Shown here piece after piece: positions 13,778 to 41,035 of a stretch of DNA of 64,000 nucleotides. Made by a program: the position numbers and the translations under genes. Numbering within the stretch: position 1 is the stretch's first letter; each line of letters opens with the position of its first letter. Under the pieces are notes generated by a model. That model did no database searches. It saw nothing but the letters and a program-made list of their open reading frames with translations, and was not told the origin of the DNA. Source of the stretch: Streptantibioticus parmotrematis (GTDB lineage: Bacteria; Actinomycetota; Actinomycetes; Streptomycetales; Streptomycetaceae); the NCBI RefSeq assembly GCF_019890615.1, contig NZ_JAINVZ010000016.1:62001-126000 (forward strand), given 5' to 3'.

Positions 13778-13819
13778 GGACGAGGCCCGTACGACGCCGC
13801 CGTCGTACGGGCCTCGTCC
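13778..13819 (+). terminator. Perfect 19-bp hairpin between gap and pgk
   Basis: Positions 13778-13796 pair perfectly with 13801-13819 around the 4-nt loop CCGC. The arms begin GGACGAGGCCC and end GGGCCTCGTCC. The pgk start lies 28 nt beyond. It can act as an attenuating terminator or an mRNA-stabilising 3' end for gap. Confidence 0.75.
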
Positions 13820-37427: not shown

Positions 37428-37572
37428 CAAAAGACACAACCCCCCGCGCCCCCAAAAAAACACAACGTGCCGTAGTCACCAGTGTGTAGCGCTTCGTTCT
37501 CCCGTCGTACGTTCGTAGTTGGCGCGTTCGCGCCACTCTCTACGCGACGTGCCCGCCGACGAGAGGACCCTC

Positions 37573-38958
37573 GTGCCGCACAGCCCTGCCCGTATCGCCG
37601 TCGTGGCCGCCGCAGCCCTGGCGCTCGGCGTCGTCAACGCCCCCGCCCACGCGTCGAGTTACGGCACTCCGAGCATCGCGCTCTCCGACGCCTACCTGAG
37701 CGGCGCGGTCGGCGCCACCGGTGATCCGACCGTCACCGTGACCCTCGCCCAGAAGGGCGCGGACGCCAGCCAGTTGACGGTCGCCGCGACCAAGAGCAGC
37801 GACGCGTCGGTGGCCGCGGCCACCGACGTGACCGTCACCGGTACCGGCGCCACCCGTACCGTCGCCGTCGAGGCCGAAGGCGTCGGGTACGCCGACCTCA
37901 CCCTCAAGGTGACCGGCGCGGGCGGCAAGACGGCCACCACCACGCTGCACTACGCCGCCTCGCAGTCCGTCTCCGACTCCGCCGACACCCGCTACTTCAC
38001 CGGTGCCGCCGACGCGTCGGCCGCCGTCGACGTGGGCGGCGGCTACACGGTCGTGGCGGACGACGAGAGCAACACCCTGCGGCTGTACCGCGACGACACC
38101 TCCGGCGCGCCGGTCAGGACCTGGGACTTCGACGCCCAGTTGGGGAACCCGGACGAGATGGACCTGGAGGCCGCCGCGCGGGTCGGCGACACCGTCTACT
38201 GGACCGGCTCGATGGGCAACAACAAGGACGGCAAGCTGGAGCCGGACCGCTCCACGCTGTTCACCACGACCGTCAGCGGCTCCGGCGCCGACACCCAGCT
38301 GACCTTCGGCGGCTCCTACCAGGGCCTGCGCGACGACCTGATCGCCTGGGACCAGGCCAACGGCAACCGGCTCGGCTTCGCCGCCGGGGCCGCCAAGGGC
38401 CAGATCCCCAAGGAGGTCAACGGGTTCAACGTCGAGGGCCTGGAGTTCGCACCGGGCAGTTCGACCACCGCGTACCTCGGCTTCCGTGCTCCGCTGGTGC
38501 CCCCGCAGGACGGCGGCAAGGCGCTGCTGGTCCCGGTCACCAACATCGACCAGCTGGCCGCCTCCGGTCAGAACACCGCGACGCACGCCACCTTCGCCGA
38601 CCCGATCGAGCTGGACCTCGGCGGCCTGAGCGTCCGCGACATCCGCCGCAACGACGCCGGGCAGTACCTGATCGTCGCCGGGTCCTACGCGGCCGACGAC
38701 CCGAGCGAGCCGTACGTCCTGTACTCCTGGGACGGCGTCGCGGGCGACCAGCCGGTGAAGCTGATGACCGTGCCCACCGAGTACGGCGCCTGGGAGTCGG
38801 TCATCTCGGTGCCCGACCTGTCCGCGCCGGGCGCCCAGGTCCAGTTGATCCAGGACGACGGCTCCGCCGACCTGTACGGCGACGGCACCGAGGCCAAGGA
38901 CCTCGACCAGAGCGAGTGGCAGAAGTCCCGCACTACCTGGTTCACGCTGAACGGCTGA
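37573..38958 (+). CDS. Secreted DUF3616-like protein
   Basis: The 461-residue product has a signal peptide (SPARIAVVAAAALALGVVNAPAHAS). A roughly 110-residue beta-rich domain with BACON/Ig-like repeats of T, V and G follows. The rest is a propeller-like domain (YRDDTSGAPVRTWDFD, then DLEAAARVGDTVYWTGSMGNNKDGKL, and FNVEGLEFAPGSSTTAYLGFRAPLVPP). The DLEAA, WTGSMGNNK and EGL-LGFR segments resemble DUF3616, a family of unknown function. GTG 37573 is chosen for the GAGAGG site 6 nt upstream and the signal peptide right after it. The substrate is not known; an extracellular enzyme or binding role is possible. Confidence 0.7.
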   Translation: MPHSPARIAVVAAAALALGVVNAPAHASSYGTPSIALSDAYLSGAVGATGDPTVTVTLAQKGADASQLTVAATKSSDASVAAATDVTVTGTGATRTVAVEAEGVGYADLTLKVTGAGGKTATTTLHYAASQSVSDSADTRYFTGAADASAAVDVGGGYTVVADDESNTLRLYRDDTSGAPVRTWDFDAQLGNPDEMDLEAAARVGDTVYWTGSMGNNKDGKLEPDRSTLFTTTVSGSGADTQLTFGGSYQGLRDDLIAWDQANGNRLGFAAGAAKGQIPKEVNGFNVEGLEFAPGSSTTAYLGFRAPLVPPQDGGKALLVPVTNIDQLAASGQNTATHATFADPIELDLGGLSVRDIRRNDAGQYLIVAGSYAADDPSEPYVLYSWDGVAGDQPVKLMTVPTEYGAWESVISVPDLSAPGAQVQLIQDDGSADLYGDGTEAKDLDQSEWQKSRTTWFTLNG

Positions 38959-39010
38959 GCCGAACGAAGTGAGCCCGCACCAACCGGGTCTCCATGAATG
39001 TGAGGGAGGT

Positions 39011-39048
39011 GTGTACGAGCGTACGCATCGCTATGTACGCTCGTACAC
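39011..39048. promoter_or_regulatory. Twin-palindrome operator of the SMR/TetR pair
   Basis: Perfect 14-bp arms (39011-39024 and 39035-39048) flank a 10-bp spacer. Each arm itself contains a 12-bp palindrome, GTACGAGCGTAC (39013-39024) and GTACGCTCGTAC (39035-39046), whose centres are 22 bp apart. TACGCT (39036-39041) could be the -10, and the ATG of the SMR gene starts directly after the right arm, so no Shine-Dalgarno fits. The layout suits two TetR dimers that block the promoter and start. Confidence 0.75.
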
Positions 39049-39375
39049 ATGCCATACGTGACGCTGGCGGGCGCGATCCTCTCCGAGGTGCTGGCGACCA
39101 CGGCTCTGAAGTACACCGACGGGTTCTCGCGGTTGTGGCCGTCGACGGCGACCGCCGCCGGATACGTGCTGTCCTTCTACCTGTTGTCGGTCACCCTGCG
39201 CACCATGGAGATCGGCACCGTCTACGCGATATGGTCCGCGGTCGGCACCGCGGTGATCGCCGGGATCGGGATGGCGTTCCTCGGCGAGAGCGTCAGCGCC
39301 GTCAAACTCCTCGGGGTGGCCCTGGTGATCGCCGGGGTCGTCGTGCTCAATCTGGGCGGTGCGTCGCACGGATGA
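39049..39375 (+). CDS. Small multidrug resistance (SMR) efflux protein
   Basis: The 108-residue protein has four transmembrane helices and the EmrE/QacE pattern: the essential membrane Glu is Glu13 (LAGAILSEVLATTALK), and Trp in YAIWSAVGTAVIAG is conserved. It should exchange cationic lipophilic drugs for protons, with dual topology. Its stop overlaps the TetR gene (ATGA). The large operator abuts the ATG, which suggests a leaderless, drug-inducible mRNA. Its true substrates cannot be told from sequence. Confidence 0.93.
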   Translation: MPYVTLAGAILSEVLATTALKYTDGFSRLWPSTATAAGYVLSFYLLSVTLRTMEIGTVYAIWSAVGTAVIAGIGMAFLGESVSAVKLLGVALVIAGVVVLNLGGASHG

Positions 39376-39917
39376 CCCGCCGTCGCCACGATCCGGACCG
39401 CGCGCAGCGGATCATCGACGCCGCCCTGCGGGTCGTGGGCCGCGACGGCATCGCCGGGCTCAGCCACCGGGCCGTCGCCGCCGAGGCGGACGTGCCGCTG
39501 GGCTCCACCACGTACCACTTCGCCACGCTCGACGACCTGCTGGTGGCGGCGCTGCGGCAGTTGGACGAGCGGTTCATCGAGGACCTGCGGGCCCACCCGG
39601 GCCTCGCCGACCCGGACGCGGACCTCGCCACCGAAGTCGCCCGGCTGACGGGGGAGTTCCTGCGCGGCGAGCACTCCCGCGCGGTGCTGGAGTACGAGAT
39701 CTACCTGACCGCGCTGCGCCGCGAGGCGGTCCGGCCGGTGGCCGCCGAGTTCGTGGACGCCGCGGTGGAGGTGCTGGCCGTGCGGGTCGACCGGGAGACC
39801 GCCCGGGCGCTGGTCGCCCTGATCGACGGGCTGGCGCTCCAGAGCCTGCTCACGGGCCGCCCGTACGATGAGGACGAGGCGCGGGCGGTCTTCGCCCGGG
39901 TCATCGGCCCGCGCTGA
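39372..39917 (+). CDS. TetR-family repressor of the SMR pump
   Basis: The 181-residue protein has an N-terminal TetR HTH ([52 protein letters not shown], about residues 9-58) and an all-helical ligand domain. The STTYHF recognition helix is typical. It is co-transcribed with the pump (4-nt overlap) and is therefore under the same twin-palindrome operator, a simple negative feedback. ATG 39372 is used; the open frame upstream lies in the pump gene. Confidence 0.93.
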
Positions 39918-40032
39918 GCGCCTCGCGCCGAGCGGCCCGTGCCGACGCGCGTCCGGCGCCGATGCGTGCGACCTGCGGCGGAAGGCGGATTCCGGGATGC
40001 GGGCCGGTTGGGCATCCCGGCGGGCCAGCGAC

Positions 40033-40046
40033 TAGCGTTCGGTGCA
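40033..40046 (+). promoter_or_regulatory. Candidate leaderless dapD promoter
   Basis: TAGCGT (40033-40038) ends 7 nt before the dapD ATG, with TTGGGC (40008-40013) 19 bp upstream. No Shine-Dalgarno precedes the ATG. Confidence 0.5.
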
Positions 40047-41035
40047 TGACTGACACGACCACCCTGCGCCCCCTCGGCGCCGCCGCCACCGGCCTCGCCA
40101 CCGTCGCCGACGACGGCACCGTCCTCGACACCTGGTTCCCGGCGCCCGAACTGGTCGAGCAGCCGGGCCCGGCCGGCACCGAGCGGCTCACCGCCGAGCG
40201 CGCCGCCGAACTGCTGGGCGAGGCCGCGCCCCGGGCCCTCGGTCCCGACCCGCGGCGCGGCGTGGAGGTCGTCGCGGTCCGCACGGTCATCGGCTCGCTG
40301 GACGACAAGCCGCTCGACACCCACGACGTCTACCTGCGGCTGCACCTGCTCAGCCACCGCCTGGTGCGGCCCAACGGGCAGAGCCTGGACGGCATCTTCG
40401 GCCTGCTGGCCAACGTGGTGTGGACCTCGCTCGGCCCGGTGCCGGTGGACGGCGTGGAGCGCGCGCGTCTCGCCGCCCGCGCCGAGGGCCTGCACCTCGC
40501 GGTGTACGGCGTCGACAAGTTCCCGCGCATGACGGACTACGTGGTCCCGGCCGGTGTCCGCATCGCCGACGCCGACCGCGTCCGGCTCGGCGCCCACCTG
40601 GCCGCCGGGACCACCGTGATGCACGAGGGCTTCTGCAACTTCAACGCGGGCACCCTGGGGACCTCGATGGTCGAGGGCCGCATCAGCCAGGGTGTCATCG
40701 TCGGCGACGGCTCCGACATCGGCGGCGGCGCGTCGATCATGGGCACGCTCTCCGGCGGCGGCAAGGAGATCGTCTCCATCGGGCAGCGCTGCCTGCTCGG
40801 CGCCGAGGCGGGCATCGGTATCTCGCTCGGTGACGACTGCGTGGTCGAGGCCGGCCTCTACGTCACCGCCGGGACTCGGGTCACGCTGCCGGACGGCCAG
40901 GTCGTCAAGGCCAAGGACCTGTCCGGCGCCGACAACCTCCTCTTCCGCCGCAACTCCGTCACCGGCACGGTCGAGGTCCTCCAGCGCACCGGCTCCTGGG
41001 GCGGCCTGAACGCGGTGCTGCACAGCCACAACTAG
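40046..41035 (+). CDS. dapD: 2,3,4,5-tetrahydropyridine-2,6-dicarboxylate N-succinyltransferase
   Basis: DapD makes N-succinyl-2-amino-6-ketopimelate in the lysine/meso-diaminopimelate pathway. The 329-residue product is the actinobacterial DapD type. It has an N-terminal helical domain and a left-handed beta-helix of hexapeptide repeats (about 165-290: [37 protein letters not shown], then [27 protein letters not shown]) and a C-terminal [12 protein letters not shown] segment. The start is ATG 40046; the frame stays open 84 nt further upstream, without similarity. Confidence 0.95.

Follow-up and report, generated by a model that had tools for sequence, protein, structure and literature searches.

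A twin-palindrome site at the start codon of an SMR efflux pump gene, a probable operator-promoter of an EbrR-type operon

Background

Among described systems, the Streptomyces repressor EbrR ("EbrA repressor", PDB 3HTA, 3HTH, 3HTI and 3HTJ) comes closest to the locus reported here. The 3HTA protein is presumably EbrR from S. lividans, and its structures hold drugs. No title or abstract opening in the literature that we searched describes the present operator or that of EbrR; subscription papers were mostly out of reach, which makes this weak evidence of absence. A second studied system is mmr-Rv3066 of Mycobacterium tuberculosis, where a passage of PMC6300501 places the SMR pump gene immediately before the gene of its TetR repressor, and where repressor mutants raise mmr expression more than 100-fold, comparable with rv3066 deletion mutants (part of PMC11537118). 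Third, the QacR repressor binds as two cooperative dimers on one 28-bp site, and the sites of QacR, CgmR, MS6564 and CprB span 22-32 bp for both dimers (part of PMC4150764).

The locus lies in a 64-kb window, the whole stretch of DNA that we analyzed. It shares the gene order of pump followed by TetR with mmr-Rv3066 and, like QacR/qacA of Staphylococcus aureus, pairs a TetR-family repressor with the pump for cationic drugs that it would control, if the presumed drug response holds. The features that we consider are the following:

39010..39049, no strand assigned: whole inverted repeat, with 15-nt arms (100% complementary) and a 10-nt spacer; its last base is the A of the pump ATG
39013..39024, no strand assigned: distal putative operator palindrome, GTACGAGCGTAC; extended form TGTGTACGAGCGTACGCA, 39010-39027
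39035..39046, no strand assigned: proximal putative operator palindrome, GTACGCTCGTAC; extended form 39032-39049, which reaches the A of ATG
39036..39041, + strand: predicted -10 element TACGCT (TANNNT), inside the proximal palindrome and 7 nt before the start codon
39049..39051, + strand: start codon and predicted transcription start of a leaderless mRNA
39049..39375, + strand: SMR efflux pump, EmrE/Qac-like, 108 aa (PF00893, 3.6e-26; EmrE 3b5d, 3.1e-24)
39372..39917, + strand: TetR-family repressor, EbrR-like, 181 aa (PF00440, PF17940; 3HTA, 5.1e-68)

We read the site as the operator-promoter of an ebr-type operon that regulates itself and consists of an SMR pump gene and a TetR repressor gene, and from the sequence evidence given below we place the probability of this reading at about 0.8.

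Results

The site and its operon in the window

Direct reading of 39011-39048 gives GTGTACGAGCGTAC GCATCGCTAT GTACGCTCGTACAC, with the ATG at 39049, and confirms what an initial annotation of this DNA had reported, namely two 12-bp palindromes whose centres lie 22 bp apart in an inverted repeat that reaches the ATG. The arms of the repeat (39010-39024 and 39035-39049) take in the A of the ATG. Each 12-mer alone is an imperfect palindrome, with 5-bp arms GTACG and CGTAC around a non-symmetric centre, AG or CT. The pattern GTACGNNCGTAC occurs in the window at these two places only (0.03 expected from 30 Markov simulations), and TGYGTACNNNNGTACRCA, allowing up to two mismatches, also has two matches, both at this site, a number reached in 0 of 100 shuffles. 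The window has other perfect inverted repeats whose arms measure 12-15 nt or more, for example near 13778 and 16701; the bare inverted repeat is not unique, and this site stands out by the two conserved palindromes inside it.

The TetR ATG overlaps the TGA of the pump gene (ATGA) at 39372. Among solved structures, the TetR protein is matched best by 3IUV (E value 4e-68) and the "EbrA repressor" 3HTA, of which residues 23-197 align to query positions 4-178, nearly the whole length. These are followed by the more distant 3T6N (3e-28), which we take to be Rv3066, a choice that its name, "probably DeoR-family", would fit. No chain named QacR was found among 36 structure-sequence matches. The operon thus joins an SMR pump gene, an adjacent full-length EbrR homologue and a conserved palindromic site, as expected of an EbrR-type SMR-TetR operon. 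The gene upstream of the site (37519-38958) encodes a protein with an N terminus that looks signal-peptide-like by eye; its DUF3616 match is borderline, at the cut-off.

Conservation of the palindromes and dimer arrangement

We examined 108 relatives, comprising the best 80 of 155 loci from named genomes and 28 of 30 loci from 297 family genomes, all picked by TetR protein similarity among the matches listed. For thirteen loci (L085, L087-L098) the DNA covered, which at L088 was only ~130 nt before tetR, contained no SMR gene, and these were left out. Together with the window, 96 loci have an SMR gene; removal of 7 duplicate upstream regions left 89 unique ones, and removal of a further 6 that were near-identical (≥90% identity) left 83 non-redundant upstream regions, window included. 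In almost every SMR locus that we examined, the SMR gene is paired with a TetR gene that overlaps it or lies close by. An exception is L125, where the tetR match is not immediately preceded by the SMR match; we counted this locus as distal-only.

A palindrome was scored as present when at least 8 of its 10 fixed bases matched. Among the 83 non-redundant upstream regions, whose counts are not independent because the relatives were chosen by TetR similarity and are akin to each other, 55 carry both palindromes, 20 the proximal one only, 8 the distal one only and 0 neither, so that the proximal palindrome is present in 75 and the distal in 63. Where present, the proximal palindrome stands at a single fixed distance from the ATG; across the 89 unique upstream regions its centre lies 8.5 nt before the ATG in 81, and an ATG is found at the expected pump start in all 89. 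The spacing between centres in the 55 two-palindrome loci is 22 bp in 46, 21 bp in 6, 23 bp in 2 and 32 bp in 1 (L046, about one helical turn beyond the usual spacing).

The exact repeat seen in the window is much rarer. In only 1 of the 55 loci, the window's own (centres GAGC and GCTC), are the two 12-mers exact reverse complements, and in 1 they are identical; distal centres are most often GCCC or GGCC. We therefore rejected the exact repeat, a peculiarity of the window's genome, as the conserved unit, which is instead the two palindromes. Since 28 of 83 upstream regions have one palindrome only at our threshold, the pair is not obligatory either, and the proposal in the initial annotation that the 38-bp inverted repeat is the functional unit finds no support.

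The same annotation had likened the site to the two-dimer layout of QacR, an arrangement in which the whole 38-bp inverted repeat would be one cooperative unit that two dimers must bind together. A spacing that stays close to two helical turns, with one locus about a turn longer, would suit such a unit, as would the degenerate second copies, below threshold, that can be seen by eye at some single-site loci (the proximal copy at L033, the distal at L038) and that may allow weak second binding. However, a promoter could equally impose constant spacing, and the reverse-complement symmetry of the 12-mers is confined to a single locus. The known sites hold both dimers within 22-32 bp (part of PMC4150764), whereas here two complete palindromes stand side by side over 40 bp in extended form, compared with 28 bp for QacR, and their centres are 22 bp apart. 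Because either palindrome can occur alone in relatives, the proximal in 20/83 of these EbrR-type operons and the distal in 8/83, an obligatory pair of the QacR type is unlikely, and the analogy is weak. The near-constant 22-bp spacing together with the frequent single-palindrome relatives instead suggests adjacent dimer sites, each of which could be used alone.

A promoter within the operator and a leaderless start

When the proximal elements are aligned on the ATG, T at -13, A at -12 and T at -8 are present in 75/75. The T at -8 is found in only 8/63 at the matching distal column, and the difference between proximal and distal elements persists when the upstream regions are thinned to below 80% identity (53/53 vs 4/43), 70% (27/27 vs 1/20), 60% (12/12 vs 2/8) and 50% (4/4 vs 1/4, where only 6 upstream regions are left). 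TANNNT is also kept 6-7 nt before the ATG in all 8 distal-only loci, a count that never exceeded 3 of 8 in 5000 shuffles. In 7 of these 8 the distance from the distal centre to the hexamer centre is 20 bp, as in complete 22-bp sites (L045 has 19). No SD-like motif was found at -20 to -4 in any of the 83 upstream regions.

A TANNNT hexamer about 6-7 nt before the start codon and no SD motif is the pattern of Streptomyces leaderless promoters. In S. lividans, TAnnnT is present in 93.4% of leaderless promoters, and, taking all promoters together, a mean of 6.3 nt separates the hexamer from the transcription start (part of PMC8079986); leaderless mRNAs make up ~20% in S. lividans (part of PMC6742748) and 22.2% in S. 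avermitilis (part of PMC8780764). We found no convincing -35 element (TTGACn), the best hexamer at 15-20 bp spacing being TGTACG (18 bp), which agrees with TTGACA at 3/6 positions; a -35 motif is present in 63.7% of promoters (part of PMC8079986). An E. coli-type promoter scan and a terminator scan returned no promoter and no terminator-like site. Three lines of evidence, a TANNNT under constraint, upstream regions free of SD motifs and the maps from S. lividans and S. avermitilis, give good support to a leaderless pump mRNA with its predicted start at the ATG. The sequence likewise favors the earlier proposal that an operator of the adjoining TetR would cover the promoter and start codon of such an mRNA.

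The pump could alternatively be expressed from a leadered promoter farther upstream, with the palindromes serving only as a 5' UTR operator that blocks elongation. The sequence GGGAGGT at 39004-39010 has an SD-like appearance, but at ~40 nt from the ATG it is too far away, and this alternative is improbable when no relative has an SD-like motif in range and when the 8 loci with a decayed proximal palindrome still have TANNNT at the leaderless distance.

The regulator of the site

Of 297 family genomes, 93 contain the spaced GTAC twin pattern and 3 the reversed-pattern control. Among the 167 with a TetR match (E ≤ 1e-20) the twin pattern occurs in 82, compared with 11 of the 130 without one, an association for which any p value would be too small because of the kinship of the genomes, and the 82 include matches from acetyltransferase operons, described below, and at least one apparently unrelated match (G105). 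The 11 pattern genomes without a TetR match (L138-L148) all belong to one other genus of the family and have a different palindrome type, a spaced twin palindrome of the GTACCCCGGTACCCGAAAGGGGGTACCGGGGTAC type.

A different regulator, rather than the adjoining TetR, might own these sites: single GTACGNNCGTAC sites occur elsewhere, with 13 in the genome, this pair included, and 2 for the reversed-pattern control. The association of the twin pattern with TetR presence speaks against this, as do the operons with a paralogous TetR that bear the same kind of site, and we consider it highly improbable. The neighboring EbrR-like TetR is most likely the putative ligand, judging by these patterns. One single GTACGNNCGTAC site in the window's own genome (G000:C9:91092-91103) lies ~270 bp beyond the match to a TetR paralogue (90438-90818).

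Similar sites before other genes

The twin pattern led us to a second kind of operon, in which a maltose-O-acetyltransferase-like gene (PF12464 and PF00132; under the NCBIfam cut-off) is followed by the gene of a paralogous TetR (37% identical at L161). These loci (L161-L165, L167 and L171-L190) are found in Streptomyces and relatives. The acetyltransferase set of 30 loci comprises 19 unique upstream regions, 3 duplicates, 7 loci without such a gene and L183, which has no ATG nearby; at L183, TACCCT stands 7 nt ahead of a GTG, a candidate start. The twin pattern first led to six of the 19 (L161-L165 and L167) and the TetR protein to the other 13, in a search that matched 22 of 200 genomes and found 3 of those six again, which are the duplicates.

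Among the 19 upstream regions, the distal palindrome is present at about the same place in 17 and the proximal, at threshold, in 16 (by eye), and TANNNT stands 6-8 nt before the ATG in all 19 (by eye). The acetyltransferase operons thus resemble the pump site in having a twin palindrome with nearly the same spacing and distance to the ATG, and they differ from the pump operon in their cargo gene and in their paralogous TetR.

More distantly, in a class-level set of 13 actinobacterial loci (L208-L220), twin GTAC palindromes at 21 bp are present at L216, L217 and L220, and three loci (L215, L218 and L220) have a palindrome that continues into an ATG triplet, a candidate start codon. Only L209 of this set has an SMR gene, and this SMR-TetR locus has no GTAC palindrome and has a purine-rich AAGGGAG before its ATG; other loci of the set likewise lack such a site. 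We did not identify the mycobacterial mmr locus or its operator among the 13.

The inverted repeat as an RNA structure

A role of the inverted repeat as an RNA hairpin that hides the start codon or ends upstream transcription is hardly credible: the 121-nt stretch does fold strongly, into a structure whose 17-pair stem extends to the AUG (MFE -51.3 kcal/mol, z -2.37), and in the two-palindrome loci the outer two of four centre columns can pair in 49/55 and 40/55, but the innermost two can do so in only 34/55 and 14/55, the distal palindrome is missing at threshold from 20/83 upstream regions, the terminator scan was empty, and the stem would be absent from a leaderless mRNA. The hairpin, though strong in the window's genome, is not generally conserved, and we rejected it. 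A search of 38800-40100 against Rfam (E up to 1) found no riboswitch and one miRNA model at chance level (E 0.57, 22 bits against a gathering threshold of 90).

Discussion

In the arrangement that we favor, an operator-promoter under the adjoining repressor, one repressor dimer would most likely bind each GTACGNNCGTAC palindrome. The proximal dimer would mask both the -10 element TACGCT and the bases where transcription and translation start, and the distal dimer the place of the -35 region; sitting next to each other on roughly one face of the DNA, the two would block the polymerase. Transcription is predicted to start at the A of the ATG or within a nucleotide or two of it; with the start there, repressor and RNA polymerase would be unable to share it, and repression would be steric. 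Binding of a cationic drug by the repressor would then free both sites, and pump and repressor would be switched on together.

A broader proposal, which we regard as evenly balanced, is that the site is a portable control module. In it, a single 18-bp palindrome would combine the roles of operator, -10 element, transcription start and start codon, and a second would lie two turns farther upstream. In Streptomycetaceae and in other Actinomycetes, the whole would have been kept or rebuilt before unrelated cargo (the SMR pump, the maltose-O-acetyltransferase-like enzyme and possibly others) under EbrR-like repressors that are paralogues of one another.

The locus is probably one more example of the established class of efflux operons that regulate themselves, with operator, promoter and start codon fused unusually tightly. 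It offers a testable example of a probably leaderless gene in which these three elements share bases. The natural variants, with both palindromes, the proximal only or the distal only, help to separate the bases used by the polymerase from those used by the repressor. If the repressor answers to drugs as expected, the site may also provide a compact inducible promoter for Streptomyces.
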